Of a stretch of DNA of 40,642 nucleotides, positions 3,666-33,624 are shown in pieces. Source of the DNA: an uncultured Mucilaginibacter sp. Lineage in GTDB: Bacteria; Bacteroidota; Bacteroidia; Sphingobacteriales; Sphingobacteriaceae. The position numbers and the translations under genes were made by a program. Below the pieces are notes generated by a model. The model was not told the DNA's origin. It made no database searches and was given only the letters and a program-made list of their open reading frames with translations. Location of the stretch: assembly GCA_903891475.1 (NCBI GenBank), contig CAITEP010000001.1, positions 1 to 40,642 of the forward strand, read 5' to 3'. Position 1 is the first letter of the stretch. The number at the start of each line of letters is the position of its first letter.

Positions 3666-3731
3666 GTGTGAAAGATGTAACTTATTTAAAAAGTTATGTA
3701 ATAATTGAAGTACAAAGGAACCCCATCTTTA
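3666..3731 (+). promoter_or_regulatory. Composite island promoter, site 1 (cupin/HAD/ackA/xfp/fba/tpi operon)
   Basis: Box 1 is GTGTGAAAGATGTAAC (3666-3681). After 14 nt comes box 2 ATGTAATAATT (3696-3706), and after a further 17 nt a -7-like CATCTTTA (3724-3731). The spacing is identical to most other copies in the window. It lies 108 bp before the first codon of the broken cupin gene. Confidence 0.8.
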
Positions 3732-3839
3732 CTCTATTGAATACGACATCTCAAAATCCCGTTCAATTTGAATGAATTCTTAATAGGCTCATATATTTAA
3801 CAAGTATCTATTTTAAAAAAGGCAGATAAAATTCAGGTT

Positions 3840-4193
3840 ATGGAAAAAAACATGCCAGATAATACTGAACTGGAAACGGGAAAGGCACATATAATAGTTG
3901 AAATAATAGAGTATGTACCAAACTCTGTAGTTATTAAAACGATCATTAAAAAATCAACAGGAAACATCAGTATCATGTCTTTTGATAGCGGTTAAGGCCT
4001 CACTGAAAAAACCAGCCCTTTTGATACTTTCGCGCAGATAATTGAAGGAAAAGCAGAAATCGTAATTGATAATGTTTCAAATCATCTCGCATCCGGGATG
4101 GGTATTATCATACCTGCACACCTACCCAACTATATCAAACCAAACGGCCGTTTTAAAATGATCCAAACCATAATTAAAAGTGGATATGAATAA
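3840..4193 (+). pseudogene. Cupin-domain protein interrupted by an in-frame stop
   Basis: One frame runs from ATG 3840 to TAA 4191-4193 (117 codons) with a single internal TAA at 3993-3995, codon 52. Protein-like sequence continues on both sides: SIMSFDSG before it, then GLTEKTSPFDTFAQIIEGKA and a cupin-like IIPAHLPNYI. There is no frameshift, so a G-to-T change in a GAA codon is the simplest explanation. Small cupins of this kind bind ligands or metals in a beta-barrel; the role here is unknown. It is the first gene after island promoter site 1 and overlaps the HAD gene by 8 bp. A sequencing error, stop readthrough, or restart within the second half cannot be excluded. Confidence 0.8.
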
Positions 4194-4836
4194 CAATATG
4201 GAAGGCATCACAACCCTGTTCCTCGATATTGGGGGTGTTTTACTTACGGCCGGCTGGGACCGCGCAGCACGAAAAAAAACATACTCACATTTTCATTTGG
4301 ATCATGATGTGTTGGAAGACAGGCACCATATTACGGTGGAAGCTTTTGAGTTAGGTAAAATAACACTCGATGAATACTTGAACAGGGTAGTTTTTTGCGA
4401 TTTGCAGGACTTTGCTTCGGAAGATTTTAAAGAATTCATGTTTGCCCAATCCTCCGCTTACCCCGAAGTGATTTCTTTCATAAGTGAATTAAAAAAAGTG
4501 CATGGTTTAAAAGTAGTGATCGTAAGCAACGAAAGCCGCGAACTTAATGAGTACCGGGCAAAAAAATTCCGGCTCAACGAATTAGCGGATTGTTTTATAT
4601 CTTCTTCTTTTGTGCGCCTTCGTAAACCCGATACTGATATTTTTCAGCTTGCACTGGATATTTCGCAAGCGGCACCACAACAAATTGTCTATATCGACGA
4701 CCAAATAATGTTTGTTCAACTGGCAGAAAATTTTGGGATAAATGTCATTCATCATACAGATTACGAATCGACAAAAACAAAATTAGCATCTTTTGGCCTG
4801 GGCATAAATAAATTTAGCCATAATGAAACCAGGTAA
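4186..4836 (+). CDS. HAD-superfamily phosphatase (HAD-IA, YihX-like)
   Basis: About 216 residues. Motif I is LFLDIGGVL, with the nucleophile Asp and Gly at the +2 position as in some HAD-IA members. Motif II is VIVSNES, the motif III Lys is in RLRKPDTDIF, and motif IV is YIDDQIMFV. The family dephosphorylates small phosphate esters, often sugar phosphates; the substrate cannot be told from sequence, but the sugar-phosphate genes downstream suggest one. ATG 4186 is preferred; GTG 4180 and ATG 4198 are also in frame. It overlaps the cupin end by 8 bp and the acetate kinase start by 14 bp, so the cluster is tightly coupled. Confidence 0.85.
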   Translation: MNNNMEGITTLFLDIGGVLLTAGWDRAARKKTYSHFHLDHDVLEDRHHITVEAFELGKITLDEYLNRVVFCDLQDFASEDFKEFMFAQSSAYPEVISFISELKKVHGLKVVIVSNESRELNEYRAKKFRLNELADCFISSSFVRLRKPDTDIFQLALDISQAAPQQIVYIDDQIMFVQLAENFGINVIHHTDYESTKTKLASFGLGINKFSHNETR

Positions 4837-6016
4837 AAACCATGTTCTTATCATAAATGGTGGTTCATCAAGCATCAAGTTCGCTTTATATGAAAATTGT
4901 GAATTACTTAATTTGTTGCTTTCGGGCCAGATAGAAAACATAGGTGCAAAAAACATTTTGTTCTATTTTTTAACGGGTGAAAATAGTAAAAAAACTAATA
5001 TTGATATCCAGGCAACCGGATTTGATTCAGCGATCAAAACCCTGATAACGTGGCTGGAAAATCAAGTAGATTTTGATTCGATAAAAGGGATTGGCCACAG
5101 GGTGGTTCATGGAATGGAACATACTGAACCCGAAATAATAACAGCAACTTTATTGGATGATTTAAAGGAGATAAGTAATTATGACCCGGATCATCTACCC
5201 GAAGAAATAAAGTTGATCTCCACTTTTCAAAAACGATTCCCCGGACTAACTCAAATAGCCTGCTTTGACACGTCCTTTCACACTACCATGCCAAAGGTTG
5301 CAAAATTGTTGGCAATTCCGCGCCGGTTTAACAGAATGGGTATACATCGGTTTGGTTTCCATGGCATTTCTTATGCCTACCTGATGGAACAACTTAAACA
5401 GGTTGAAGGCGACCCTACGCTCAGGGAAAAAGTAGTCTTGGCGCACCTCGGCAGTGGGGCGAGCCTTGCCGCAGTAAAAGATGGAAAAAGTATAGACACC
5501 AGTATGGGGTTTTCACCTTCGTCAGGTATACCGATGGGCACACGCACCGGGGACCTTGATCCGGGTGTCGCCTGGTATTTAATGAAGGCCGAAAAGTTAA
5601 GCCTCAGCCAGTTTAACGACCTTATTAATCACCGATCGGGTCTGCTGGGTATTTCTGAAACCAGTTCAGATATGCATCAATTAATACGAATACAAGAAAA
5701 GGACAATCGTGCCAAAGACGCTGTTGAACTATTTTGCTACCAGGCTAAAAAATGGGTCGGTTCGTTTGCGGCAGCACTCAATGGAATAAACACCTTGGTA
5801 TTCTCGGGAGGCATAGGTGAAAACTCACCCGAAGTTCGGGAACGGATATGCGAAGGCCTCCAGTTTTTAGGAATTGAACTAAATAAAGAAGAAAATTTAA
5901 GGAGTGGGCCTATTATCTCTGCCGACGCCGGTACAGTATGCGTCCGTGTTATTAAAACCAACGAAGAATTAATGATAGCAAAGTCAGTTTGCAATATATT
6001 GAACAATAACATTTAA
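4823..6016 (+). CDS. ackA: Acetate kinase
   Basis: The 397-residue length is normal for the family. It has the N-terminal phosphate-binding [11 protein letters not shown], the acetate kinase signature region [14 protein letters not shown] near residues 230-245, and [16 protein letters not shown] near the C-terminus. It converts acetyl phosphate and ADP to acetate and ATP in the cytoplasm. Phosphoketolase, 13 bp downstream, makes acetyl phosphate, so the pair forms the ATP-yielding end of a phosphoketolase shunt. No phosphotransacetylase is present in the window, which fits acetyl-P coming from phosphoketolase rather than acetyl-CoA. Confidence 0.96.
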
Positions 6017-6029
6017 AATAAAAACACCT

Positions 6030-8420
6030 ATGGAAACAGAAACAATGAACCCCGAAGTTGAAACACTATCACCAGAGTTATTGCGAAAAATGAACGCTTA
6101 TTGGCGGGCGGCGAATTACCTTTCTGTCGGTCAGATCTATCTTTATGATAATCCGCTGCTGAAAGAACCCTTGAAACTATCACACGTTAAACCCCTGGTG
6201 GTAGGGCATTGGGGAACCACACCCGGCCAGAATTTTATTTATGTACACCTGAACAGGGTTATAAAAAAGTATGACCTGGATATGTTCTATGTTGCGGGAC
6301 CGGGCCATGGTGGGCCCGCTATTGTCGGTAACGTCTATCTGGAAGGAACTTGGACCGATGTTTATCCAAATATTACGAAGGACGAAGCCGGCTTGAAAAA
6401 GCTATTTAAACAGTTTTCATTTCCGGGCGGGATATCAAGTCATGTGGCGCCAACTACACCAGGATCTATTCATGAAGGTGGTGAATTAGGTTATTCCCTC
6501 AGCCATGCATTTGGTGCAGTATTTGATAATCCGGAATTGGTGGTTGCCTGCGTTATTGGCGATGGTGAAGCCGAAACCGGCCCTCTGGCGACAGCATGGC
6601 AATCAAATAAATTTCTTGACCCCATTACAGATGGGGCTGTCTTGCCTATTTTACATCTCAATGGTTACAAGATAAGCAATCCAACTATTCTTTCGCGTAT
6701 TGAGCACGATGAACTGGAGCAATTTATAAGGGGCTGTGGCTGGACCCCCTATTTTGTTGAAGGAGACGATCCAGAAACAATGCATCATTTAATGGCTTTA
6801 ACGTTGGAAAGGGCTATTGAAGAAATAAAGGCCATCCAGGAAAATGCAAGGAAAAACAACGACAGTACACGCCCACGCTGGCCAATGATTGTTTTAAGAT
6901 CGCCTAAAGGGTGGACCGGGCCAGTGAAGGTGGATGGTCTGCAGATCGAAGGTACGTTCAGGGCTCACCAGGTGCCGATTCTTGTTGATGAAAATCATCC
7001 TGACCATGTAAGGTTGCTTGAAAACTGGATGAAAAGTTATAAACCTGAAGAATTGTTTGATGAAAATGGACGTTTATTGCCTGAATTGGAAGAACTTGCT
7101 CCAAGAGGCAACAGGCGTATGGGCTCAAATCCTCATGCAAACGGAGGGATATTATTAAAAGATCTGGTGATGCCGGATTTTCGTGATTATGCCGTTCATT
7201 TAACTTCTCCGGGCGCTGTAATGGGCCAGGACACGATGGTGCTTGGCGTCTTCTTAAGAGACGTTACTAAACTTAACCCAGACAACTTTCGCACATTTGG
7301 GCCAGATGAAACAGTTTCTAACCTGTTGGATGCTGTATTCGAGGTGACCAACCGCCAATGGGATGCCCGTGAAATAAGCAACGATGAATTTCTTGCACCG
7401 GCCGGTCGCGTGCTTGATTCCCAGTTAAGTGAACACCAGTGTGAAGGCTGGCTGGAAGGTTACCTGTTGACCGGAAGGCATGGATATTTCAATAGTTACG
7501 AAGCGTTTATCCGTATTGTTGACTCCATGTTCAGCCAGCATGCCAAATGGCTGAAGGTTACGCTTGAACTACCGTGGCGCCGCAAAATATCGTCGCTTAA
7601 CTATCTTCTGGCTTCGCATGTGTGGCAACAGGATCATAACGGCTTCACTCACCAGGACCCCGGTTTTCTGGATCACGTGATCAATAAGAAAGCCGACATA
7701 GTACGTGTTTACCTGCCACCTGATTCCAATTGCTTATTATCGGTATTTGATCATTGTTTACGTAGCCGCCATTATGTGAACGTAGTTGTGGCCGGTAAAC
7801 ATGCGCTGCCGCAATGGCTTACTATGGATGAGGCTGTTGTGCATTGTACCGAAGGACTCGGTATCTGGAAATGGGCCAGTAATGACCAAAATGAAGAACC
7901 GGATGTGGTAATGGCCTGTTGCGGTGATACACCCACATTGGAAATACTGGCTGCCGTTTCCATTTTGCGGGAATATCTGCCTGATTTGAAAATAAGGGTA
8001 ATAAATGTAGTTGACCTGATGAGGCTGCAGCCAAGTACAGAACACCCTCATGGATTAACCGAGGAAGATTTTGATTCGTTATTTACGAAAGATAAGCTTA
8101 TTGTATTTGGCTTTCATGGATACCCCTGGCTGGTGCACCGTTTAACTTACAGTCGCAGCAATCGCAATATCCACGTAAGGGGCTATAAAGAGGAAGGTAC
8201 CATAACTACACCGTTTGATATGCGAGTACAGAATGACCTGGACCGGTTTCACCTGGTACAGGACGTTATTGACCGCGTACCGGGCTTAGGCACAAAAGGC
8301 GCATACCTCAAACAACTGATGCAAACCAAACTGATAGAACATAAAGCTTATATCGATGAAAATGGAAAAGATATGCCGGAAATTCTTAACTGGAAGTGGA
8401 GTATAATTAACCATGAATGA
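6030..8420 (+). CDS. xfp: Xylulose-5-phosphate/fructose-6-phosphate phosphoketolase
   Basis: The 796-residue, ThDP-dependent enzyme is full length. Hallmarks are [19 protein letters not shown], the [19 protein letters not shown] segment with active-site His residues, and the ThDP/Mg motif [16 protein letters not shown]-terminal parts include [12 protein letters not shown] and the [10 protein letters not shown] region. It splits xylulose-5-P or fructose-6-P with inorganic phosphate into acetyl-P plus glyceraldehyde-3-P or erythrose-4-P. Substrate preference cannot be decided by eye. It sits between acetate kinase and aldolase, with the aldolase start overlapping its end by 8 bp. Confidence 0.97.
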
Positions 8421-9450
8421 GCAAGCACTTATAGCTACTGCCAGGGCTATGGTCGCGGACGATAAGGGCCTGCTGGCAATGGATGAAAGTAATGGTACTT
8501 GTAATAAACGGTTTGCGGCACTTGGAATTCCGCAAACCGTAGATCAACGTAGGTCGTATAGAGAGCTCATCATTACTACGCCGGATCTTGGAAAGTACAT
8601 TAGCGGGCTGATACTTTATGATGAAACTATCCGCCAGCAAAAGAAAGATGGTACGCCTTTCATCAAAGTAATACTTAATGCGGGTATTATACCAGGCATA
8701 AAAGTTGACATAGGCTCTAAAGACCTTGCAGGGCATCCCGGGGAGAAAGTTACTGAAGGCCTTGACGGGTTACGCGACCGGATTAAGGAATATGCCCTAA
8801 TGGGCGTGCGTTTCGCCAAATGGCGCGGAGTGATATGCACTGATGATAGTTTGCCCAGCCGTGGCTGTATAGCGGCTAATGCCCAGGCTCTTGCGCGGTA
8901 TGCTGCGTTATGCCAGGAAGCCGGTTTGGTGCCGATAGTTGAACCTGAGTTGTTGATGGATGGAGACCATACGATCCATCAATGCTCAGATGTAACCGAG
9001 GAGACACTAAGGGCAGTTTTCAAAGAATTGTATCTGCAGAACGTGATGCTTGAAGGGATTATATTGAAACCAAATATGATACTTCCGGGTTTAACCTTCA
9101 AAGTTCAGGAATCCGTTGACGATGTGGCAGATGCTACCATAAAATGCCTGCTTCGAAATGTCCCTGCTGCTGTACCTGGCATTGCGTTTTTATCAGGAGG
9201 CCAAGCAGCTGAACTGGCAAGTTCAAGGCTGAATGCAATGAATTTACGGTTCAAATCCAGGTTGCCCTGTGGTGTTGCTTTTTCTTTTGCACGTGCCATT
9301 CAGCAACCAGCACTGGAAATCTGGAAAGGTGATGAAGCGAACGTTCTGGAAGCACAACGGGCTCTGCTTCACCGCGCAATGTGCAATGCTGCCGCACGGC
9401 GCGGTGAATATAATGCTGATTTAGAAAGTTGTGTTCAAAGTAATAGTTAA
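8413..9450 (+). CDS. fba: Class I fructose-bisphosphate aldolase
   Basis: The 345-residue protein matches class I (Schiff-base) aldolases. It has the N-terminal [19 protein letters not shown], the RFAKWRGV and [12 protein letters not shown] segments, the Schiff-base Lys in GIILKPNM near residue 217, and FLSGGQ. It interconverts fructose-1,6-bisphosphate with dihydroxyacetone-P and glyceraldehyde-3-P. ATG 8413 overlaps the phosphoketolase end, indicating translational coupling. With TIM downstream it can feed phosphoketolase-derived glyceraldehyde-3-P back towards hexose phosphates or take hexose down glycolysis. Confidence 0.95.
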
Positions 9451-9469
9451 GCATACAATAAAAGACCAT

Positions 9470-10237
9470 ATGATCCGAAGAAAGATTATTGCCGCAAACT
9501 GGAAAATGAATGAAGATTATGACCAAGGAATCAAGTTGTTTTCGACAGTTATTAATTTGATGGATGATGAGATAACCGGTGATCAGCAGGTTATTGTATG
9601 CCCTCCTTTTATTCATTTGCATTCGCTTGCTGAGCTATCAAAAAATCACCTTCAAATATCAATTGGCGCCCAAAATGCACACCAGGCAGAGTCGGGTGCA
9701 TACACTGGTGAGATCTCCGCGAGAATGATCAGGTCAACAGGTGCAGAATATGTAATACTTGGTCATTCAGAACGCAGACTTTATTTCAATGAAACCAATG
9801 AACTGATTGCAAAAAAGATCGATACAGCACTATTGAACACCCTTAATATTATTTGTTGTGTCGGCGAAAGCAAAAAGGAAAGAGAAGCGGGACAGCAATT
9901 TGAAGTTTTAAAAAAGCAGTTGACAGAAGGCCTTTTTCATCTTGATGAAATGCAGTTTGCGCATTTAACCATTGCCTATGAACCTATATGGGCAATAGGA
10001 ACAGGAGTTACAGCGACAGCAGCCCAGGCACAGGAAATACATCAGTTTATCCGGCAACAAATAAACACGAGGTACAACGAACAAATAGCGGACAATATTA
10101 TCCTGTTATATGGCGGAAGCTGCAACCCTAAAAATGCTGTTGAACTATTTTACCAGAAAGATATTGACGGTGGCCTTATTGGTGGCGCATCATTAAAGGC
10201 AAGGGATTTTGTTGATATTATAAAAGTTTGCAATTGA
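9470..10237 (+). CDS. tpiA: Triosephosphate isomerase
   Basis: From ATG 9470 the product is 255 residues, normal for TIM. It starts MIRRKIIAANWKMN with the catalytic Lys, and has the catalytic His in VILGHSERR, the catalytic Glu in AYEPIWAIGTG, and the phosphate-binding LLYGGSC and GLIGGASL. It interconverts dihydroxyacetone-P and glyceraldehyde-3-P. The frame is open back to a GTG at 9431 inside the aldolase gene, but those 13 extra residues match nothing in TIMs, so ATG 9470 is preferred. It is the last gene of the plus-strand carbon operon, convergent with the glucan phosphorylase gene. Confidence 0.95.
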   Translation: MIRRKIIAANWKMNEDYDQGIKLFSTVINLMDDEITGDQQVIVCPPFIHLHSLAELSKNHLQISIGAQNAHQAESGAYTGEISARMIRSTGAEYVILGHSERRLYFNETNELIAKKIDTALLNTLNIICCVGESKKEREAGQQFEVLKKQLTEGLFHLDEMQFAHLTIAYEPIWAIGTGVTATAAQAQEIHQFIRQQINTRYNEQIADNIILLYGGSCNPKNAVELFYQKDIDGGLIGGASLKARDFVDIIKVCN

Positions 10238-10306: not shown

Positions 10307-12847
10307 TTAGCCCTGCCATAAAATATGGTTATCTTCCAACGGTACACTAATGCCTTCATAATTTGGAATAATACGTACCGTGAAATCCGTTGCAGGTCTT
10401 TTGGTTATGACTTGAGTTTTGTAAATTGTTTCAGCACCTGTATTTTCAGCTTGATCGGCTTGCAATTTTATCTTTTCAATCGGTTCGCCATTAATGCTAT
10501 CAGCGTAAAGTTCCACGGCAATGGCATCGCGGCTTATGCCATTAAGCCCAATGCTAACATGAAATGAATAGCCATTTTCTATGGCATCTTTTTGTATTTC
10601 CCCGAATTTAATTTTATCCCATTTGTTAGCCAACTGGTGGCGTTTATTGCTAATTCTTGTACCTATAGCGCCCTTTTCTGCCGCTCGTTTTAAATAATTT
10701 TCGGCTGCCGGCAGATAACGTTGTTCAGTATATTCCCGTACAGTACGGTTTGCTGAAAATTGAGGGGTTAACGTTGCCATGCTTTTGCGCATCCGTTCTA
10801 TCCAGCGCACCGGCGTCCCGTTTTGGTCGCGGTTATAAAATTCAGGGATAACTTGTTTTTCCAAAAGGTCATATAAAGCTTCTGCTTCTAATGAATCCCA
10901 GGCAGGGTCGTCGCCGTGCTCTTTTCCATCGCCGAGTGCCCACCCTACTTCAGGAGTATATGCTTCGGCCCACCAGCCATCCAGTTCCGATAAATTGAGG
11001 CCACCGTTTACCAGTACTTTCATTCCACTTGTTCCGCAGGCTTCCCATGGGCGTCTTGGTGTATTGAGCCACACGTCTACCCCTTGTACCAGTTGTGCAG
11101 ATAATGACATATCGTAATCGCTTAAAAAAACGACATGCTGGTATAGATCATTCTTTTGAATAAACTGGATCCATTGCCTGATCAAAGACTTGCCAGGTTC
11201 ATCAAAAGGTGGAGATTTGCCGGCAAGTACCAATTGCACAGGATGCTCATGATTGGTGAGTATTCGGATAAACCTTTGCTCGTCATGCAGTAAAAGGTCG
11301 GTTCGCTTATAAGGCACAAAACGACGCGCAAAACCCAATGTGAGTATATTGGGATCAAATACCTCCTTTGCGAGCCCGGTCATTTCCTGCTGCCCGGAAA
11401 CTCTAAATTGCTGTTCGAGCTTTTTGCGGGTATATAAAACCAGGTTATTTCGCGCATTGTTTCTTAATTCCCAAAGTGTTTTATCCGGTGTTTTATAAAT
11501 GTCCTGCTCAACCGTTTCCAGGTTACCTTTCCAGCGATCTTTACCACATGCACCAGTCCAGGTATTGTCGGCAAATTCAGAATCCCAACTGGGCATGTGA
11601 ACGCCATTTGTTACCGACCCTATGGGTACTTCTTCGTTTGGCCAGCGGTTAAAAAGAGGCTCAAAAAGATGTCTGCTCACTTTGCCGTGTAAAAGGCTTA
11701 CACCGTTTACCGCCCCGCTCCCGCGAATAGCGAGGTTGGCCATATTAAAGCTTTCTGAATAATTATTGGGATAGTTCCTGCCAAGGGCCATCAATTCGTT
11801 AAATTCTATACCAATTTCGTTTTTAGCATAATCAGCCAGAAATTGTTCCATCAATCCGGGGTTAAAGTAATCGAACCCGGCAGCAACAGCAGTATGCGTG
11901 GTAAATATATTCCCAGCCCGAGTTATAGCTAATGCAACTTCAAAAGAAACACCTGTATCTTTCATAAAATCGCTGGCCCGCTCCAGTACCAAAAAAGCAG
12001 CATGGCCTTCATTCATATGGCAAACCTCAGGTTTAATATCAAGCGCCCTTAGCAGTTTATAACCACCGATCCCTAAAATGATCTCCTGCTGGATACGCAA
12101 ATCAGATCCGCCGCCATAAAGTTCATTAGTGATTTCTCTGTGGGCTGGCAGATTAGCCGCGTCGTTGCTATCCATCAGGTAAAGCTTAACATTACCTACC
12201 TGCACTTCCCAGGTACGCAGCCAAACCGGATTACCTGCAAGGTATATTTTTAGGCGCAACCAGTCGCCATTTGGCAAACGCAGAGGTGTGATGGGCAATT
12301 GTCCGGGATCGTTGTATGGGAATATAGCTTGCTGCGTGCCATATTGATCAATATCCTGTCGAAAATATCCCTGCTGGTAAAGCAGCCCTATTGCTACAAC
12401 CGGGACCCCCAGGTCACTGGCTGATTTTAGTTGATCGCCAGCCACGTTACCTAATCCGCCAACATAAATTGGCAGCGCTTCGCTTAACATAAATTCCATG
12501 CTAAAATAGGCGATGCAAGTAAGTGCTGTTTTTGGATGATTTCTTTGAAACCAGGCTGGATTTGATGCCGCAAGCGCCTTTGATGCCTGCAACGATTTTA
12601 TTTTTTCAATAATGGCAGGGTCTGCTAATTTTGCTTCAAGCTGACTGCGTTTGATTGTTTGTAAGATTACCCAGGGATTATGAGTACTTTCCCATAATTC
12701 GGTATCCAATTGTTGCCATAAATCATCAGCGGCATGGTTCCATGACCAGCGCATATCCAGTGCAAGTTCGGCAAGCTCTTCTAATCCTTCAATATTTGAA
12801 GGCAAAAAACCATATAGTCTATCTGTATTAAATGTTTGCTTTTTCAT
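10307..12847 (-). CDS. glgP: Alpha-glucan (glycogen/maltodextrin) phosphorylase
   Basis: About 846 residues of the GT35 family in the form with an N-terminal DUF3417-like region (LPSNIEGLEELAELALDMRW). The PLP-binding region EACGTSGMKVLVNGGLNLS lies near residues 600-620, and substrate-loop segments such as GLGNVAGDQLKS and NEGHAAFLVLERA are visible. It releases glucose-1-phosphate from storage glucan using inorganic phosphate, saving ATP. ATG 12847 (MKKQTFNTD) is preferred over TTG 12856, which would leave only 4 bp after atpG. It is the last gene of the SPFH-to-N-ATPase run, and no transcription start is apparent in the 13-bp gap from atpG. Confidence 0.95.
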   Translation of the reverse strand: MKKQTFNTDRLYGFLPSNIEGLEELAELALDMRWSWNHAADDLWQQLDTELWESTHNPWVILQTIKRSQLEAKLADPAIIEKIKSLQASKALAASNPAWFQRNHPKTALTCIAYFSMEFMLSEALPIYVGGLGNVAGDQLKSASDLGVPVVAIGLLYQQGYFRQDIDQYGTQQAIFPYNDPGQLPITPLRLPNGDWLRLKIYLAGNPVWLRTWEVQVGNVKLYLMDSNDAANLPAHREITNELYGGGSDLRIQQEIILGIGGYKLLRALDIKPEVCHMNEGHAAFLVLERASDFMKDTGVSFEVALAITRAGNIFTTHTAVAAGFDYFNPGLMEQFLADYAKNEIGIEFNELMALGRNYPNNYSESFNMANLAIRGSGAVNGVSLLHGKVSRHLFEPLFNRWPNEEVPIGSVTNGVHMPSWDSEFADNTWTGACGKDRWKGNLETVEQDIYKTPDKTLWELRNNARNNLVLYTRKKLEQQFRVSGQQEMTGLAKEVFDPNILTLGFARRFVPYKRTDLLLHDEQRFIRILTNHEHPVQLVLAGKSPPFDEPGKSLIRQWIQFIQKNDLYQHVVFLSDYDMSLSAQLVQGVDVWLNTPRRPWEACGTSGMKVLVNGGLNLSELDGWWAEAYTPEVGWALGDGKEHGDDPAWDSLEAEALYDLLEKQVIPEFYNRDQNGTPVRWIERMRKSMATLTPQFSANRTVREYTEQRYLPAAENYLKRAAEKGAIGTRISNKRHQLANKWDKIKFGEIQKDAIENGYSFHVSIGLNGISRDAIAVELYADSINGEPIEKIKLQADQAENTGAETIYKTQVITKRPATDFTVRIIPNYEGISVPLEDNHILWQG

Positions 12848-12860
12848 TTTACTCAATTTT

Positions 12861-13757
12861 TTATTTTATAGGTTTTGCATTTAACGCTTCAAACCCGGAA
12901 ACCACATCAAATAGTTCTTCGTCAATAGAGCTTTGTCTCAACCTGTGAAATTTATGGCCAAGACTTTCCAGTAAATTCCCTATATTCTTATCTGCCCGCT
13001 GCATTGCCTCCAGCCTGCTGGCGTTTTCACTGGCTAACGACTCTGCGCAAGCTTTAAACAATGAAACAAAAAGGTAGGCATTGATAAGCGCCAGCAAAGC
13101 AGCACTGATTTTTCCAATAATTTCAGGTATGTAATTTGTTGGCCATTTAATTTCGGTGAAATCATGGCGCCATTGTTCGTCAAGGGGCAATAAGCGCTGC
13201 ATAACGGGTTCATACCCAGTATCAGGCTTAGGCTGGTTATGAAAAATATAAAACTCCATTTCCGGTTGTTTTTCGTTAAGCTCTTCAATTGCAACTAAAA
13301 TTTGCCCTATTAGCGGCGTGATCGCATCAATTGAATTTGGGACAGCAAAACTTTTATCCGCAACTAATCCGGCATCAGCCAGTAAAAGCTTCACACGGTC
13401 ACCAATTACCCAAATTTGTTTTGAACCTCGTAAATTCGGCAATGAATGTCCAACATATTCCGTCATTACATTGTTAAACCGGCCTACCAGGCCCTGGTCC
13501 GACCCAAAAACGATTGCGCATATTGATTTTTCATCCCATTTTGGGGATATTTGATTTTCAATTTTGCCTTGTATTTTCTCCTGCTTTAAATAAGCAACAA
13601 TGCCTAATGATACCGTATGGTAATAGTCACCAAGTGAAGCAACGGCGGCTTCATATTGCGCAATATTTGAGGCAGCCATAGCTTTCATAGCCTTAACCAC
13701 CGATTTAATATCCTTCGCCCCGGATAATTTTTTGCGCAGATCCTCCAGCGTATCCAT
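12861..13757 (-). CDS. atpG: N-ATPase gamma subunit (central stalk)
   Basis: The 298-residue protein has the gamma-type N-terminal coiled coil (SVVKAMKAMAASNIAQYEAAV) and a C-terminal helix with SENASRLEAMQRADKNIGNL, which form the rotor shaft. The middle Rossmann-like part is diverged, as is usual for N-type gamma subunits. It is last in the order atpDCQRBEFAG, and its ATG overlaps the atpA stop by one base (TAATG). The assignment rests on both sequence and position. Confidence 0.93.
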   Translation of the reverse strand: MDTLEDLRKKLSGAKDIKSVVKAMKAMAASNIAQYEAAVASLGDYYHTVSLGIVAYLKQEKIQGKIENQISPKWDEKSICAIVFGSDQGLVGRFNNVMTEYVGHSLPNLRGSKQIWVIGDRVKLLLADAGLVADKSFAVPNSIDAITPLIGQILVAIEELNEKQPEMEFYIFHNQPKPDTGYEPVMQRLLPLDEQWRHDFTEIKWPTNYIPEIIGKISAALLALINAYLFVSLFKACAESLASENASRLEAMQRADKNIGNLLESLGHKFHRLRQSSIDEELFDVVSGFEALNAKPIK

Positions 13758-15304
13758 TAGGTTTGTGATTGAGCCGGTACTGGTTTTTCCTTAAATGGAG
13801 CAATCAATTCACCGGCAATTTTCAAAATAGCATCGTGGTCCTGATCATTTAGCGGTTTATCAGAAAGTAACCCTTTAAGTATTTCTGCAGAAAATTTATT
13901 CATGTTACTAAGCAATGCGGTTTCCGCATCTTGTATTTTTTCAATAATGATATCATCAAAAAGTCCACTGGTTAGGCTCAATAAAATAATAATCTGTTCA
14001 GGAACCGATAAGGGTGTTAATTCATTTTGCTTCAAACATTCGCGGATGCGGTTACCGTGGTTTATAGTTTTTTGTGTATTCTCGTCGAGGCGTGTACCGA
14101 ACCGGGCGAAAGATTCCAGTTCTTCAAACTGTGAATATTGAAGTTTCAGGTCGGATATTGAACGAAATGCAGGTAGTTGCGCGTTCCCTCCTACCCGCGA
14201 TACAGATTTACCAACATCCACCGCAGGTAAAATACCCGACTCAAACAAAGTTGGGGAAAGATAAATCTGTCCATCGGTAATTGAGATCAGGTTGGTGGGA
14301 ATGTATGCTGAAATATCCTGGGCCTCTGTTTCAATAACGGGCAAAGCGGTAAGGGAACCTCCTTTTAATGCTTTACTTAAATGTGTAGCTCTTTCCAATA
14401 ACCTTGAATGGATGTAAAAAATATCACCCGGAAACGCTTCACGTCCTGGTGGCCGTTTCAGCAACAGGGATAATTCACGGTATGAACGGGCATGTGCGGT
14501 AAGATCATCATATATAATAAGTACATCCCTGCCTTGTTCCATAAAATACTCCCCAATACTGGTAGCCGCATAGGGGGCTATATATTTTAAGCCCGCTGAG
14601 TTGTTGCCTTCTGCCACAACAACAACAGTATATTCCATTGCCCCTTTAGCTTGCAGGTTAGCCACTACTTTTGCTACAGCCGATGCTCGTTGCCCAATGG
14701 CACAGTAAATACAAAGCACTTTTTTATCATGCTGATTAAGAATTGTATCTATCGCAATGGCAGTTTTACCTGTTTGCCGGTCACCCAGTATCAGTTCGCG
14801 CTGCCCGCGCCCTATTGGGATAAGGGCATCTATAACTTTTAAGCCGGTTTGCAATGGTGTATTTACCGGCGAGCGGTCCATAATGGCATGTGCCGGACGC
14901 TCAATTGGCAGGCGTTCGTTATACGCTATTTCTCCTTTTCCATCAATAGGTTCGCCTATGGGGTTGATCACTCTACCAATCAAAGCATCTCCCACCGGTA
15001 TATCCATTACGCGGCCTGTCCGTTCCACTTGGTCGCCGGCATTTAATAGGGTGTCTTCACCTAATAGTATCGTGCCTATTTCATCTTTATCGATATTATA
15101 GGCTATGCCGAACAGATTTCCGGGAAACTTCAATAACTCTTCAAAGCCGGCACCCGGTAACCCGGAAACCTTGACAATGCCAGTAGCCACACCGGTAACA
15201 TAACCAACCTCGCGCGGGGTAAAAGGATAATCAAAGTCTTTGATACTTTCATCCAGCCGGCTAAATATGCTTTTTATACTTTTATTCAAATCATTTGACG
15301 GCAT
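13757..15304 (-). CDS. atpA: N-ATPase alpha subunit
   Basis: The 515-residue protein has the alpha-type P-loop GDRQTGKTA at about 174-182, the segment GLKVIDALIPIGRGQRELILG before it, and SVSRVGGNAQ with the conserved Arg/Ser region near 365. Alpha subunits form the non-catalytic nucleotide sites of the F1 hexamer. It overlaps atpF by 14 bp and atpG by one base. As in other N-ATPase operons, alpha is encoded far from beta, on the other side of the membrane-sector genes. Confidence 0.96.
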   Translation of the reverse strand: MPSNDLNKSIKSIFSRLDESIKDFDYPFTPREVGYVTGVATGIVKVSGLPGAGFEELLKFPGNLFGIAYNIDKDEIGTILLGEDTLLNAGDQVERTGRVMDIPVGDALIGRVINPIGEPIDGKGEIAYNERLPIERPAHAIMDRSPVNTPLQTGLKVIDALIPIGRGQRELILGDRQTGKTAIAIDTILNQHDKKVLCIYCAIGQRASAVAKVVANLQAKGAMEYTVVVVAEGNNSAGLKYIAPYAATSIGEYFMEQGRDVLIIYDDLTAHARSYRELSLLLKRPPGREAFPGDIFYIHSRLLERATHLSKALKGGSLTALPVIETEAQDISAYIPTNLISITDGQIYLSPTLFESGILPAVDVGKSVSRVGGNAQLPAFRSISDLKLQYSQFEELESFARFGTRLDENTQKTINHGNRIRECLKQNELTPLSVPEQIIILLSLTSGLFDDIIIEKIQDAETALLSNMNKFSAEILKGLLSDKPLNDQDHDAILKIAGELIAPFKEKPVPAQSQT

Positions 15305-16082
15305 GATGTTTTTTTTCTGTTACTGGTATTTGCTGATTTGATGCTGCGATACTTTTTTCAAATGAACTGACGTATTCGGTGATACTCCAGGCAAGTTTAT
15401 AACCATTTGTTGTTAATTCTATACCGCCTAAAAGTGCAGTTGAGGTTTTAAATTGGAATGAAGGGTTCGATCCCAGCATTTTGATTACCGCGCTTTTGAT
15501 TCCGCTTTGTTGTTTTTCAGACAAATCAAATGCACTTTGTACCAGGATTGACCCCGATGCCGAAAGGAGGGCCTTTTTAAACAGATCCTTTTCATCGTCT
15601 TTTATATTACTTATCTGTTTTACAAATACGTTGACTGACTGTTCTTCAAAATTAACGTCAGCCAAATCAGCAAGCACCTTTTTGGTAATGGCAAAAACCC
15701 CCTGTTCAGTTTTTTGCTGCAGTTGTTTATTTAAATCTGCCTGTTGTTCCTGCACAGTTTTTTCCAGTTTATCCTGTAAATTTTTAGCCTTAGTTTTTGC
15801 ATCATCCTGCAGCTTTTGGCTTAGCACTCCGGCTTCCGCCGTGGCTTTATCCATCATGTCCTTCTTTTGCTGCTCAAAAACCTCGTTTTTTTTGTTAAAT
15901 TCATCCTGTTCGGCTTTTGCTTCATTCTTTTTAGTTTTCGCGTCGGCAAGTTGACCAGCTATTTTTTTTTCCCGATCATCTATCATGCTGAGGATAGGCT
16001 TATAGAGATAGCGTTTCATCAACCATACCAAAACAAGAAAATTCAGTATTTGCGCTATTACAGTGAACCAGTTAATTTGCAT
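15291..16082 (-). CDS. atpF: N-ATPase b subunit with C-terminal delta-like extension
   Basis: 263 residues: one N-terminal membrane segment (about 5-22), a long charged, Gln/Lys-rich coiled coil to about residue 130, then a C-terminal region that could take the place of the delta subunit. No separate atpH is present, which agrees with the known N-ATPase gene set, where b is enlarged and delta is missing. It forms the peripheral stalk. It is 7 bp after atpE and overlaps atpA by 14 bp. Confidence 0.9.
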   Translation of the reverse strand: MQINWFTVIAQILNFLVLVWLMKRYLYKPILSMIDDREKKIAGQLADAKTKKNEAKAEQDEFNKKNEVFEQQKKDMMDKATAEAGVLSQKLQDDAKTKAKNLQDKLEKTVQEQQADLNKQLQQKTEQGVFAITKKVLADLADVNFEEQSVNVFVKQISNIKDDEKDLFKKALLSASGSILVQSAFDLSEKQQSGIKSAVIKMLGSNPSFQFKTSTALLGGIELTTNGYKLAWSITEYVSSFEKSIAASNQQIPVTEKKHHAVK

Positions 16083-16089
16083 GGGATAA

Positions 16090-16359
16090 TTATTTGGCGA
16101 TAACGTGATTCCAAAAAGGATTAGCGAAAATCAGGATCATGGAAACCACGAAACAATAGATTGCTGTAGATTCGATCATCGCTAAACCGACAAATAACGT
16201 CCTGGTTATAGTTGGTGCCGCATCAGGCTGCTGTGCAATTGAACTCAAAGCTGTTGCTACAGATTTCCCTTCGCTCAATGCCGGGAACATACAGCCTATA
16301 CCTGTTGTTAACCCTGCTGTTATAATTGATGCTATTGCTATTGCTGTATCTTTATCCAT
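16090..16359 (-). CDS. atpE: N-ATPase c subunit (rotor ring)
   Basis: The 89-residue hairpin has two membrane helices joined by the polar loop AQQPDAAP. Helix 2 has the ion-binding Glu63 in IESTAIY; Glu-Ser-Thr and Tyr68 match the Na+-binding pattern known from Ilyobacter-type c subunits. Helix 1 carries a second carboxylate, Glu30, in PALSEGK, as is typical of N-type c subunits, whereas the Ilyobacter Gln32 position is different. Na+ specificity was proposed for N-ATPases from such motifs, but the Burkholderia pseudomallei N-type c17 ring was reported to be H+-specific, so the ion is left open. Confidence 0.95.
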   Translation of the reverse strand: MDKDTAIAIASIITAGLTTGIGCMFPALSEGKSVATALSSIAQQPDAAPTITRTLFVGLAMIESTAIYCFVVSMILIFANPFWNHVIAK

Positions 16360-16373
16360 TTGGTATTCTCCTT

Positions 16374-17081: not shown

Positions 17082-17386
17082 GATGGATCGGTTTTATTTA
17101 TTTGTAGTTGCTTCTGATCATAATATTTCGTCAGGAACATAACTATGAATCGGGCTGTCACGAACCCAAGTAAGCAAGCGAGGAACTTTTGCCAGCTACC
17201 TTCAGCTACAAAATAAAATCCTGCTAGCGCTATAATTGTTCGTATCAACGAACTGACTGAAACCCATAGTGCAGCATAATTTGATCCAACTGCTTTTTTG
17301 ACAGTTAACCAAAGCCCTCCAAAAAACAAGGTTCCAAGGACTATTCCTGCAATTAAGGACAGTATTACGTTAGAAGCTATTACCAT
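17078..17386 (-). CDS. atpR: N-ATPase accessory membrane subunit AtpR
   Basis: The 102-residue protein has three predicted membrane segments. Conserved-looking Arg residues lie within or at the ends of membrane segments (SSLIRTIIALAGF and GFVTARFIV). AtpR is restricted to N-ATPase operons, and its arginines have been proposed to contact the extra c-subunit carboxylate during ring assembly. Position between atpQ and atpB and the size both fit. Confidence 0.88.
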   Translation of the reverse strand: MVIASNVILSLIAGIVLGTLFFGGLWLTVKKAVGSNYAALWVSVSSLIRTIIALAGFYFVAEGSWQKFLACLLGFVTARFIVMFLTKYYDQKQLQINKTDPS

Positions 17387-17392
17387 TTTTTT

Positions 17393-17683: not shown

Positions 17684-17684
17684 T

Positions 17685-18080: not shown

Positions 18081-18081
18081 T

Positions 18082-19584
<1,503 letters not shown>

Positions 19585-19598
19585 TTATATGAGCATAT

Positions 19599-21061: not shown

Positions 21062-21107
21062 TGAATAGATAATTAGGAAATTCAGTTACTTCAATTGCCC
21101 CTTTTTA

Positions 21108-22034
21108 TTAAACCTGTTCGCTCTCCTTTACAGTTTCGGTACCATTTTTTATTTTATCCTGACCAATGCCCATAGTTAACGCGGTTAAACCGGCCATGCT
21201 GCCCAAACCCATGGTTTCAACCGCCGAACTCGGAACAATAACTATTGTAGAATTTTGCTTTAACCCTTCGTACAACATATTCATAGCACGTAAATGCAGA
21301 GCAACCGGATTATTGGCGTAGGTTTTAGCCGCTTCGCCAAACTTCTCTGCTACCTGTCTTTCTGAATCTCCGAGAATTACGCGGGCCTGTCTTTCCCGTT
21401 CTGCTTGTGCCTGCATTGACATGGCATTTTCTAATGAAGCCGGTATCAGCACATCTTTTACTTCCACGGAGTTCACGTTAATGCCCCATGGTTCGGTGCG
21501 TTCATCAATAATTTTTTGCAATACACTACTGATCTTATCCCGCCCTTCAAGCATATCTGACAACATAGTTTTTCCAATAACGTCGCGTAAGGCAGTTTGA
21601 GAAGCCCAACTAATAGCGCTGATATAATCGGCCACCTCCAATGCTGCCTTTTGAGGGTCAAGCACTTTCCAAAACAATACGGCATCCACGTCAACCGGCA
21701 CTGTGTCTTTGGTTAATGTTTTTTCTGCTTTAAATGAAGTAGTGATTACCCTTGTATCAATCCAGTAAGGTATGGTGTCAAGAATAGGAATTATGAAAAA
21801 CAAACCGGGACCCCGAAGTGCCTGAAATTTGCCCAGGCGCAACACTACAGCCTTATCCCAGGGATTGGCAATATTAATTGATGAGGCCACAAAAGCAGCT
21901 AAAATTAAGCCCCCTGCTGAAATGATGATGCCTTCCGCGGAAGTAGCTATCCCACGCATGGAATAAGCAATTGCTATTGCTGTTCCAAAAATTATAACAA
22001 ATATGACGCTGGATAGAAAGCTTTTATTTTGCAT
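21108..22034 (-). CDS. SPFH/slipin (stomatin-prohibitin) membrane protein
   Basis: 308 residues. Two hydrophobic segments (about 9-26 and 32-50) precede a PHB/SPFH domain containing AVVLRLGKFQALRGPGLFFIIP, DTIPYWIDTRVITT and WGINVNSVEVKDVLIPASL. A helical tail with AQAERERQARVILGDSERQVAE follows, then a Gly/Thr-rich end. Slipins form membrane scaffolds, often paired with NfeD proteases; no NfeD is present here. First gene of the 13-gene minus-strand run ending in glgP, and directly downstream of island promoter site 2. Confidence 0.92.
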   Translation of the reverse strand: MQNKSFLSSVIFVIIFGTAIAIAYSMRGIATSAEGIIISAGGLILAAFVASSINIANPWDKAVVLRLGKFQALRGPGLFFIIPILDTIPYWIDTRVITTSFKAEKTLTKDTVPVDVDAVLFWKVLDPQKAALEVADYISAISWASQTALRDVIGKTMLSDMLEGRDKISSVLQKIIDERTEPWGINVNSVEVKDVLIPASLENAMSMQAQAERERQARVILGDSERQVAEKFGEAAKTYANNPVALHLRAMNMLYEGLKQNSTIVIVPSSAVETMGLGSMAGLTALTMGIGQDKIKNGTETVKESEQV

Positions 22035-22079: not shown

Positions 22080-22145
22080 CGAAGATACTTGCATTTGCCA
22101 CTTGAATTGTTATATAACTATGGGTATTAGTTATATGATTCACAC
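22080..22145 (-). promoter_or_regulatory. Composite island promoter, site 2 (SPFH-PPK2-N-ATPase-glgP run)
   Basis: On the minus strand, box 1 is GTGTGAATCATATAAC (22145-22130), box 2 ATATAACAATT (22115-22105), and the -7-like box TATCTTCG (22087-22080). The 14-nt and 17-nt spacings are conserved. It lies 45 bp before the SPFH start codon and divergent from site 9. Confidence 0.82.
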
Positions 22146-22184: not shown

Positions 22185-22225
22185 GTGTGAATAATGTGAT
22201 CTATTGATAGGATTATGTAGTAATT
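22185..22225 (+). promoter_or_regulatory. Orphan copy of the composite boxes, site 9
   Basis: Box 1 GTGTGAATAATGTGAT (22185-22200) and box 2 ATGTAGTAATT (22215-22225) have the conserved 14-nt spacing on the plus strand, but no CAnnTTTG-like box stands 16-17 nt further on. No convincing gene follows; only a 28-codon frame at 22282. It may be a decayed promoter, an operator for site 2, or a start for a small RNA. Confidence 0.55.
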
Positions 22226-22281
22226 TCGGCAAATTTTATAATTCTAAACAGGGAGATACTGCCTAAAGCATTTAGATTAAT

Positions 22282-22368: not shown

Positions 22369-22404
22369 GTAAAGGTAGTTTGTAAACCTTTGTTGTTGCC
22401 CTGA

Positions 22405-24423: not shown

Positions 24424-24489
24424 CAAAACTGATGGCTTTTACTTTGAGAATTGTTATGCAATTCTCTTAATTAGTTACATGATTCACAT
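24424..24489 (-). promoter_or_regulatory. Composite island promoter, site 3 (SHOCT-cupin-BON unit)
   Basis: Minus strand: box 1 ATGTGAATCATGTAAC (24489-24474), box 2 GCATAACAATT (24459-24449), -7-like CAGTTTTG (24431-24424), with spacings of 14 and 17 nt. It lies 37 bp before the SHOCT start and is divergent from site 6. Confidence 0.85.
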
Positions 24490-24606: not shown

Positions 24607-24672
24607 GTGTGAATTATGTAAGCAATTCCCAATATTATATAATACTTACATTGAACAAAGGCAACACCTTTA
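24607..24672 (+). promoter_or_regulatory. Composite island promoter, site 6 (small-protein/oxidoreductase unit)
   Basis: Plus strand: box 1 GTGTGAATTATGTAAG (24607-24622), box 2 ATATAATACTT (24637-24647), -7-like CACCTTTA (24665-24672), with spacings of 14 and 17 nt. It lies 47 bp before the ATG at 24720. Confidence 0.82.
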
Positions 24673-28386: not shown

Positions 28387-28407
28387 ACCTATTCCTGATT
28401 TTTCAAA

Positions 28408-28472
28408 CAAATCTGCCAGATTTTAAGGTTTAAGTGTTATGTAATTAGATTAATTTGTTACATCATTCACAC
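28408..28472 (-). promoter_or_regulatory. Composite island promoter, site 5 (alcohol dehydrogenase)
   Basis: Minus strand: box 1 GTGTGAATGATGTAAC (28472-28457), box 2 ACATAACACTT (28442-28432), -7-like CAGATTTG (28415-28408), with spacings of 14 and 16 nt. It lies between the AraC copy 2 stop and the ADH start, so ADH is not simply read from the AraC transcript. Confidence 0.85.
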
Positions 28473-28488: not shown

Positions 28489-29043
28489 TTAGCCGGTTTG
28501 CACACAATTGTCGTACCTTGATCTTTTAAAATCTGCTGGCGTTTTGCCGGTGATTTTTTTAAATTGATTACATAAGTGAGCTACGCTGCTATAATTCATT
28601 TTATAGGATATTTCAGTTAGTGTCAGCTTGTGGTAAACCAACAATTCTTTAACCCGTTCCACCTTATGCTTAATTAAATAGTGTTCAACATTTATACCCT
28701 CCACTTCAGAAAATAAATTGGCCAGAAAAGTGTATTCATGATCTAATTTTTTACTTAAATAAGTTGAAAAATTTATTTTCAAAGGTTCATCTTCGTAATG
28801 TACCATTTCAATGATTACTTTTTTTATTTTATCAATAATCAGGTTTTTCTTATCATCAAGTACAACAAGACCGAACTTTAGCAATCCGGTTTTAAATTCA
28901 TTTAATTGAGCATTAGTAAGCGTGTCAACAACTTCAACTTCTCCAAGTTTAACAATGGTATTATTTGACGTTATTTTTTTTATTTGCTCTTTCACTATCA
29001 TTTCACAGCGAATACAAACCATATTCTTTATGTAAATCTTCAT
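28489..29043 (-). CDS. AraC-type regulator with N-terminal MxCxxC (HMA-like) domain, copy 2
   Basis: 184 residues with the same two-part build as the protein at 2830: MVCIRC at residues 8-13 in an HMA-like domain, then an AraC DNA-binding domain containing TLTEISYKMNYSSVAHLCNQ and ITGKTPADFKR. The first recognition helix is nearly identical between the copies, so both may bind the same DNA. An extra Cys stands in the recognition region. It overlaps the upstream 85-residue gene by 4 bp (ATGA). No island motif is seen upstream of either gene, as expected if it is an upstream regulator. Confidence 0.86.
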   Translation of the reverse strand: MKIYIKNMVCIRCEMIVKEQIKKITSNNTIVKLGEVEVVDTLTNAQLNEFKTGLLKFGLVVLDDKKNLIIDKIKKVIIEMVHYEDEPLKINFSTYLSKKLDHEYTFLANLFSEVEGINVEHYLIKHKVERVKELLVYHKLTLTEISYKMNYSSVAHLCNQFKKITGKTPADFKRSRYDNCVQTG

Positions 29044-32338: not shown

Positions 32339-32375
32339 GATTTAGTTTCTTAATTGTGAATTGATTTTCACATCA

Positions 32376-32440
32376 CAAAGTTGCTGGCCTTTGGAAAAAA
32401 AATGTTATTCAATTCTGTCTATTAGTTACATCATTCACAC
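32376..32440 (-). promoter_or_regulatory. Composite island promoter, site 4 (SHOCT-BON-oleate hydratase)
   Basis: Minus strand: box 1 GTGTGAATGATGTAAC (32440-32425), box 2 GAATAACATTT (32410-32400), -7-like CAACTTTG (32383-32376), with spacings of 14 and 16 nt. It lies 37 bp before the SHOCT start and is divergent from site 7. Confidence 0.85.
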
Positions 32441-32479
32441 ATTTAGTGATGCCATTGGTTCTTATGCGGTTTAAGAAAT

Positions 32480-32545
32480 GTGTGAATTATGTAGATTATT
32501 TCCATTGTTGTGTAACAAATTAACTCTTTGCTGTATACACATTTG
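32480..32545 (+). promoter_or_regulatory. Composite island promoter, site 7 (universal stress protein)
   Basis: Plus strand: box 1 GTGTGAATTATGTAGA (32480-32495), box 2 GTGTAACAAAT (32510-32520), -7-like CACATTTG (32538-32545), with spacings of 14 and 17 nt. It lies 69 bp before the USP start. Confidence 0.85.
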
Positions 32546-32614
32546 CTGCTGCAACTTTTTTAGTTTACAATTTGAGGGTCTTTTGTTTATTAAAATAAGC
32601 GCTATTATTAAAAA

Positions 32615-33472
32615 ATGAAAACTTTACTTTTTTCGACAGATTTTTCTGAAAACGCGACTCACGCTATCAGATATGGATATTATTTAGCAAGTGAAATCAA
32701 AGCGAACATTTTGTTATTTAATGATGTCCTGGTTCCAACGGAAGCGACTTATTCAGGTTTGTTGGGCTGGCCTGTGGACGAATTTGATATAATTTTGAAA
32801 GACAGTACAAAAGAGTTGATCAAGCTTAAAACTTTACTCGAAAAAGGCGGACAAACAACAGGCTTTCATCCTGCTGTTAACTATTTAAACCAATCAGGAA
32901 TCTTAACGGATATAATCAACAATATTATTGCCGATAAAAAAGTAGATCTCGTTGTTATCGGCACACATGGCGGCGGTGAACTTAGTACTTTATTGTTGGG
33001 GAACCATAGCAGAAATTTAATAGATGGTATTAGCGGTCCATTATTACTGATACCGCCTGCCGCCAAACTATTTCAGATAAAAAAAATAGCTTTTGCCAGT
33101 GACTTTACAGACCCGGAAGAGGACATCAAATCAATTGCTTTATTAACAGGATTGGCAAATCCACTAAAGGCAGAAATATTATTAAAACATATCTATGAAG
33201 GAGAGGATCAATTGCCAGAATTTGAAAAACGGATCAATCAATTTATAAATGATCTCGCTGTTAAGGTAAGTTTTTCAAAAATAAAATATACTTTGTACAA
33301 AAGTAACGGTGCTCAATCGGGTTTGGAATGGCTTTGTGAAAACGGGGATATTGATATCCTCGCCATGATGCATCGTTCACATACCTTTATTGATAGTCTT
33401 TTCAGGGGAAGCCAGACTCAAAAAATTGCTGGCCAAATTCCTATTCCATTGCTGGTATTTCCCTGTAAATAA
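32615..33472 (+). CDS. Universal stress protein, tandem UspA domains
   Basis: 285 residues made of two UspA-like domains (about 1-148 and 150-285). Domain 1 begins TLLFSTDFSENATHAIRYG and has the ATP-loop-like GTHGGGELSTLLLGNHSRN followed by PLLLIPP. Domain 2 has IAFASDFTDPEED and MMHRSHTFIDSLFRGSQTQK followed by PLLVFP, with a less complete nucleotide loop. Such proteins respond to starvation or low oxygen. Monocistronic, behind promoter site 7. Confidence 0.94.
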   Translation: MKTLLFSTDFSENATHAIRYGYYLASEIKANILLFNDVLVPTEATYSGLLGWPVDEFDIILKDSTKELIKLKTLLEKGGQTTGFHPAVNYLNQSGILTDIINNIIADKKVDLVVIGTHGGGELSTLLLGNHSRNLIDGISGPLLLIPPAAKLFQIKKIAFASDFTDPEEDIKSIALLTGLANPLKAEILLKHIYEGEDQLPEFEKRINQFINDLAVKVSFSKIKYTLYKSNGAQSGLEWLCENGDIDILAMMHRSHTFIDSLFRGSQTQKIAGQIPIPLLVFPCK

Positions 33473-33558
33473 AAAGCGTAATCGTTGCAAGTTGGTTTAA
33501 TTAAATTCATTTTGCTCAATTTCTAACTTTACCGCACAGGCAAATTTCGAATACTGAT

Positions 33559-33624
33559 GTGGGAATGATGTAACTTTTTTCTTGTTTTATATAACAGCAA
33601 CAAACACTATCGAAGCAATCTTTG
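33559..33624 (+). promoter_or_regulatory. Composite island promoter, site 8 (aldehyde dehydrogenase)
   Basis: Plus strand: box 1 GTGGGAATGATGTAAC (33559-33574), box 2 ATATAACAGCA (33589-33599), -7-like AATCTTTG (33617-33624), with spacings of 14 and 17 nt. It lies 23 bp before the ATG at 33648, so the leader is very short. Confidence 0.8.

Follow-up and report, generated by a model that had tools for sequence, protein, structure and literature searches.

A composite promoter-like element and a small predicted HMA-AraC regulator are linked across many Bacteroidota

Which factor acts on a promoter element that recurs before operon after operon on a single piece of chromosome? This question is raised by a stretch of 40,642 nucleotides (nt) from the 3.96-Mb genome of an uncultured Mucilaginibacter sp. 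(assembly GCA_903891475.1, contig CAITEP010000001.1; G000 in our samples), which we call the window and which was analysed at its full length. An earlier reading of the bare sequence (the original prediction) had proposed that eight operons in the window share a composite element of two boxes and a -7-like box, that an AraC-family activator acts on it, and that the island is a single regulon. Our analysis makes it quite probable that the nine such sites now recognized in the window are where a small member of the AraC family acts as activator; its N-terminal domain is predicted to be a heavy-metal-associated (HMA) domain. The guess at an AraC-family factor is thereby given a candidate, whose gene occurs in two copies in the window and is physically linked with the motif in many Bacteroidota.

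All eight sites lie at the positions and on the strands first claimed for them (Table 1). In each of them (8/8, box gaps counted by eye) one can read a 16-bp box 1, a gap of 14 nt, an 11-nt box 2 and, after a further 16 or 17 nt, a -7-like box; elsewhere the -7-like boxes were scored by script. With columns counted from 0 at the start of box 1, the eight aligned sites are invariant at columns 1, 2, 4, 5, 6, 9, 10, 12 and 13, and also in TT at 28-29, TAA at 33-35 and TT at 62-63, the last within the -7 box. A 41-bp matrix spanning box 1, the 14-nt gap and box 2 was built from the eight sites, and it added a ninth site that had been overlooked, at 22185 on the forward strand. No intact gene was found downstream of it (window 22185-22400), and the sequence behind it is perhaps a decayed target.

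Box 1 consists of GTGTGA and ATGTAAC about one helical turn apart, and it looks like a complete half-site of which box 2 retains the second part. The proposed direct repeat of the box cores at 21 bp was borne out by the column profile, whose self-similarity peaks at lag 21 among lags 8-39, with lag 9 in second place. The best palindromic identity of box 1 is 0.46, which means that it is not a palindrome, and a palindromic CRP/FNR site (TGTGA-N6-TCACA) was rejected on this ground. The half-sites linked to the regulator are non-palindromic, direct and close to the promoter, as expected of the AraC/XylS family.

Across the whole genome we counted 19 sites, nine in the window, eight on contig C15 and two on contig C20. 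The island therefore holds part of the site set, which reaches beyond the limits first drawn for the regulon. The composite pattern with up to three mismatches gave 13 matches and a looser, later pattern gave the same 19 sites as the matrix, versus none with either pattern reversed; the consensus for the looser scan was written after the ten sites outside the window were known. Matches to box 1 alone on C11, C31, C16 (two), C30 and C38 and at C15:117100 were not counted, as they have no proper box 2. Six pairs of sites stand back to back and divergent, namely 22145/22185, 24489/24607 and 32440/32480 in the window, 18199/18231 and 29119/29163 on C15, and 211543/211564 on C20.

The same architecture was found in related genomes. 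In 80 related Bacteroidota loci (1.30 Mb), the matrix produced 101 matches of at least 20 bits, distributed over 53 loci, versus none in each of three Markov-1 simulations and none with the reversed matrix. Because these loci were picked for the regulator and include near-copies (e.g., L027/L028, L092/L094 and L103/L104), their site density is uninformative for the genome-wide density. The spacing is rigid: when the gap between the boxes was altered by -6 to +6 nt, 0-7 matches were left versus 97 at the true gap, and a change of one base left 1-2. Seven of the 101 sites lie inside open reading frames (ORFs) of at least 100 amino acids (aa), although 81% of the bases do. Since the motif is strongly non-coding and fixed in its spacing, it passed the genomic part of the test attached to the original prediction, which concerned its frequency inside genes and its spacing.

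The link to the regulator emerges from where these sites lie. Among the 80 related loci, 24 have a box 1 that shares bases with the stop codon of the regulator gene, at an identical offset in 23. In these loci the opening six bases of the box (GTGTGA, GTGTAA or a variant of these) double as the gene's final codon and its stop, and in 17 of the 24 they encode Val-stop (hand count). A site of at least 12 bits lies between -15 and +70 of the stop in 37 of 89 regulator genes, and 13 same-strand sites stand upstream of a regulator copy, ten of them at 70-103 nt (from site start to the start of the longest ORF). In the Mucilaginibacter genome itself, 3/3 regulators have a site within 340 bp (rough p 2e-7). 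Three loci (L039, L051 and L055) carry tandem regulators in which the site at the first regulator's stop is also 70-91 nt before the second, a placement that suggests relay or autoregulation.

To keep the regulator from biasing the choice, the DNA pattern alone, with up to two mismatches allowed, was run over 91 family genomes (our own and 90 others); it gave 41 sites (19 own) and one control match. Twelve of the 22 sites from other genomes begin 19-36 nt past the aligned end of a same-strand regulator gene, where a rough expectation is 0.0002. In a phylum sample of 198 genomes, scanned with the composite pattern at up to three mismatches and with the regulator called at E 1e-5, the regulator is present in 21 of 24 motif-bearing genomes versus a base rate of 91/198 (p=1.2e-5), and at up to two mismatches in 10 of 11 (p=0.003); these Fisher tests, like the pump/cysteine association and the target-homolog test given below, are uncorrected for kinship. 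Two genomes with strong sites, G011 and G016, have a regulator that is merely 32-35% identical, and the most sampled family of the phylum sample (f16; 43 of 198 genomes, hand count) has neither regulator nor site. Might another factor bind the boxes, such as a LytTR response regulator or a CRP/FNR protein, with the AraC gene a mere neighbor? LytTR proteins also use direct repeats with a period near 21 bp, and the sequence TGTGA is similar to half of a CRP site; we consider this explanation highly improbable, as box 1 is not a palindrome and both the stop-codon overlap and the genome-wide co-location with the AraC gene would be left unexplained.

We next describe the HMA-AraC protein itself, whose two copies in the window are 68% identical, with a third own copy at C15:36219. 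Its C-terminal part is matched by HTH_18 in the two window copies (E 3e-16 and 6e-14) and by HTH_AraC above the cut-off, and the PDB profile and fold matches agree on the double helix-turn-helix of the AraC/XylS family. Residues 1-62 have no Pfam match: HMA (PF00403) is absent at 1e-3 in both window copies, and it is absent from the precomputed domains of the 120 homologs listed, whose names are solely AraC, YesN/AraC, transcriptional regulator and helix-turn-helix. A profile of 67 relatives, compared with the PDB, matched the HMA domain of CopA at E 2.7e-4 with no single stretch passing alone. The AlphaFold2 model (mean pLDDT 91, pTM 0.69) gives the N-domain the order beta-alpha-beta-beta-alpha-beta, and a Foldseek search with this model retrieved HMA-type chains weakly (E 0.04-0.46), including Atx1 and a CopA domain. 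Both window copies combine this predicted HMA fold with an MxCxxC motif. The N-domain thus resembles the HMA domains of CopA, CopZ and Atx1 in predicted fold and MxCxxC, and differs from them in being fused to an AraC DNA-binding domain and in its first cysteine (C10), which is replaced in 33 of 89 regulators; C13 is invariant in 67/67 relatives. A protein search that scored 8,000 candidates gave at least 7,990 relatives with an E of 1e-20 or lower, and the homologs listed include a protein of M. paludis with 77% identity. In the window, composite site 1 is divergent from regulator copy 1, and on the other side that copy adjoins an M90-type metallopeptidase gene (1990-2802) with no composite site before it.

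How such a protein would work at these sites is suggested by AraC itself, which at araI1-I2 of the E. coli arabinose operon uses a pair of direct half-sites spaced by about 21 bp, of which the proximal one reaches into the -35/-33 zone. The composite sites and their probable regulator share with that system the 21-bp direct half-sites, the overlap with the -33 zone and the DNA-binding fold, whereas the regulator has an HMA-like domain in place of the arabinose-binding cupin, is much smaller, and would act at a Bacteroidota promoter and on many operons. Two regulator subunits would sit two helical turns apart, one on box 1 as a complete half-site and one on box 2, which has only the 3' half (near TTRTRTAAC). 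The promoter-proximal subunit would stand in for the missing -33 element and touch the sigma-ABfr RNA polymerase, like AraC at I1-I2. On this reading an activator would be required, and transcripts would begin 5-10 nt past the -7 box. Box 2 likely replaces the -33 element, and therefore the regulator probably acts as an activator in the way AraC does at tandem half-sites. The regulators would govern their own genes or neighbors together with one regulon for stress or energy shortage. The weakest step is the signal: the MxCxxC HMA domain points to Cu(I) or another soft metal, or else to the redox state of thiols, and the variants with one cysteine that occur in other species may no longer receive this input or may receive a different one.

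A -7-like box follows box 2 after 16 or 17 nt at 17 of 19 sites in the own genome and at 91 of 101 in the relatives, versus 19 of 505 random positions. The sigma-ABfr promoter consensus in Bacteroidota is given as -33 TTTG and -7 TAnnTTTG (PMC7366714). The composite sites share with it the A..TTT(G) core of the -7 box, which stays at a fixed place, and depart from it in that a -33 TTG is rare and the first -7 base is usually not T: T stands there at 1 of 18 own sites and about a quarter of relative sites. The proposed CAnnTTTG holds for the own genome (CA in 15 of 18 scored) but not for relatives generally, where the first bases vary (CA 44, GA 25, TA 23, AA 4 and TC 1 among 97 scored). This non-consensus first base of many -7 boxes would hold basal expression low. 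A TTG in the -33 zone occurs at 6 of 120 sites versus 150 of 1200 in the random control; this shortage of the -33 TTTG of sigma-ABfr promoters is partly forced by the matrix, in which TAAC occupies that place.

These promoter features also bear on two other explanations. The rigid distance of 16 or 17 nt would suit an alternative, extracytoplasmic function (ECF) sigma factor that reads box 2 and the -7 box as its -35 and -10 elements and leaves box 1 to a co-regulator. We hold this to be very unlikely, since the -7 box retains A..TTT(G), the core known from main sigma-ABfr promoters (consensus from PMC7366714), and since the core of box 1 recurs in box 2 at a distance of 21 bp, which is unexpected of a sigma element; no sigma gene was noticed in the ORF list of the window, though no search was aimed at one. 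More serious, if still unlikely, is that the same regulator works as a repressor, with box 2 blocking the promoter until a signal-driven derepression turns the operons on. Box 2 does overlap the -33 region, and metal-pump neighbors of the kind described below are often controlled by derepression in other bacteria. However, upstream tandem direct half-sites at a fixed gap from the -7 box are what a polymerase-touching activator needs, and the -7 box is non-consensus in most sites, so that low basal promoter strength is predicted. Activation by the HMA-AraC protein is the reading that we retain.

Together with the matrix effect on the -33 zone, several observations weigh against this activation reading. 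No -33 motif could be identified in Flavobacterium johnsoniae (PMC7366714), and the missing -33 element may for this reason be less special outside Bacteroides. The phylum scan at three mismatches gave 80 matches and 12 control matches (hand sums), so some of these matches are chance. No match of at least 20 bits is present in 27 of the 80 regulator loci, some of which are short contigs, and a strong site of this consensus is missing from 64 of 81 regulator-bearing family genomes (up to two mismatches) and from 70 of 91 regulator-bearing phylum genomes (up to three mismatches); the motif may differ there. One genome, G192, has a perfect site but no regulator found at E 1e-5; both of its strong sites (L110:7108 with no mismatch and L111:5037 with two) are no more than about 220 bp from a contig end. 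Finally, the co-occurrence of site and regulator in the family sample (17/17) is uninformative at the genome level, because 81 of the 91 genomes carry the regulator.

Table 1. Composite sites, regulator genes and site-linked genes in the window.
Feature	Position	Strand	Description
Regulator copy 1	2830..3390	-	predicted HMA-like N-domain and AraC HTH, 186 aa
Composite site 1	3666..3731	+	box 1 3666-3681, box 2 3696-3706, -7-like box CATCTTTA
CLU0 family gene	3816..4190	+	first behind site 1, broken by in-frame stop
HAD hydrolase, acetate kinase, phosphoketolase, class I fructose-bisphosphate aldolase, triosephosphate isomerase	4180..10237	+	behind site 1; AckA, FbaB and TpiA named by sequence only
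SPFH, PRC, PPK2, nine alternate F1F0 ATPase genes, alpha-glucan phosphorylase	10307..22034	-	behind site 2
Composite site 2	22080..22145	-	towards SPFH, PRC-barrel, PPK2, alternate F1F0 (N-)ATPase genes, alpha-glucan phosphorylase
Ninth composite site	22185..22250	+	weaker, 28.2 bits; poor -7 box
Composite site 3	24424..24489	-	towards SHOCT-like membrane peptide (below Pfam cut-off), cupin, BON protein, 131-aa protein
Composite site 4	24607..24672	+	towards three small proteins with no Pfam match, ADH_N_2 oxidoreductase, DJ-1/PfpI
Composite site 5	28407..28472	-	17 nt past regulator copy 2 stop; towards ADH_N alcohol dehydrogenase
Regulator copy 2	28489..29043	-	predicted HMA-like N-domain (residues 1-62, MxCxxC at C10/C13) and AraC HTH, 184 aa
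Composite site 6	32375..32440	-	towards SHOCT peptide 2, BON-like protein 2 (named by sequence)
Composite site 7	32480..32545	+	towards universal stress protein
Composite site 8	33559..33624	+	towards aldehyde dehydrogenase-like ORF, 460 aa (named by sequence)

The genes behind the sites form a recurring set. The ORFs that follow the eight sites in unbroken same-strand order number about 32-35 (hand count; operon ends inferred), more than the roughly 28 intact genes first given. The site at 3666 had been described as facing a gene start; its first gene is broken, as seen from a tblastn match over 3816-4190 and the DNA, and the later genes follow. This gene belongs to the CLU0 family, which is first behind a site in 12 cases, and it has an intact paralog on C15 (L010:15425-15790) with no Pfam or NCBIfam match. 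The alternate F1F0 (N-type) ATPase-like operon comprises nine genes (window 12861-19572) beside PPK2 and the glucan phosphorylase; its beta subunit scores above the TIGR03305 cut-off, and the other subunits were named by sequence and order. The operon of site 6 perhaps also covers MCRA, an 85-aa ORF and regulator copy 2 on the same strand, and the aldehyde dehydrogenase-like ORF behind site 8 has homologs in L113/L115 that are 74-77% identical. Going by the gene names, this set would let a non-respiring cell make ATP from stored glucan via phosphoketolase and acetate kinase, the dehydrogenases would discharge reducing power, and the N-ATPase would maintain an ion gradient.

On C15 the targets are a second aldolase, HAD/PMM-like, TolC-type efflux, GH130, MlaD and nitroreductase genes, and paralogs of the window set. 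Paralogous stress-gene sets thus occupy two places of one genome (the window, and L009 and L010 on C15), each with its own regulator and sites. Such paralogy would also fit the idea that the sites are remnants of a recent duplication of one promoter region, with no common regulation. It is extremely unlikely, given that conservation is mostly limited to the boxes, with variable spacers and flanks, and that the same layout stands before unrelated genes in other Bacteroidota.

In the relatives, the first genes behind the sites encode CsbD-like proteins (named from sequence, with no Pfam match), OmpA, ice-binding proteins, Mn catalase, Fe/Mn superoxide dismutase and DUF892, as well as CLU0 family members, second regulators and heavy-metal pumps; site targets across the loci include SHOCT proteins, dehydrogenases and CopA-like pumps. 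The sole pump tested, from L071, passes the copper-translocating subfamily model and fails the CopA equivalog cut-off. A site is carried by 20 of 115 homologs of own island genes versus 19 of 1096 other genes (p=1e-11), with the regulators and the relatives' own target families (pump, CsbD-like, catalase etc.; 150 of 1361 genes) excluded from both sides and with greedy gene calling that missed overlapping short genes. A pump follows 22 of 56 regulators with both cysteines versus 0 of 33 without. Twenty-one of these 22 pump-linked regulators fall in one supported branch of 31 rows, and the pump label needs 8 changes on the unrooted tree.

Compared by gene content alone, the island is reminiscent of low-oxygen islands of the lxa/DosR type. 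The low-oxygen-activated lxa locus of Burkholderia cenocepacia is likewise a large group of clustered stress genes, universal stress proteins included, but it belongs to another phylum, and a CRP-type regulator, BCAM0049, has been suggested for it (PMC6127331). The main text of that paper, as distinct from its supplementary gene lists, has no mention of phosphoketolase, acetate kinase or alcohol dehydrogenase (PMC6127331).

In searches of an open-access library, a scope outside which most subscription papers lie, we found no description of the motif or of the HMA-AraC regulator, and six motif strings had no occurrence there; this agrees with the initial impression that the motif was undescribed. 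The parts are of known kinds; what was not found described there is the pairing of protein and site, how widely this pair occurs, and the gene set that goes with it.

Bacteroidota manage a general stress response without the sigma factors familiar from other phyla, and how they do so is poorly understood. We tentatively suggest, as a possibility rather than an expectation, that HMA-AraC proteins are a phylum-wide one-component switch, which environmental Bacteroidota would use where other bacteria have their RpoS/SigB general stress response. In these proteins a sensor resembling a copper chaperone would be joined to an AraC domain that replaces the -33 element; copper pumps would be the task of one branch, and genes for stress, dormancy and fermentative energy supply that of others, in some of which the metal-binding motif is altered. 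A defined protein, a defined DNA site and a recurrent set of genes are now linked across many Bacteroidota, and because the three are tied together, the proposal can be tested in one strain via two or three gene deletions. The link suggests how a Bacteroidota promoter could dispense with its -33 element, and it presents the metal-chaperone fold as a possible sensor of a transcription factor.

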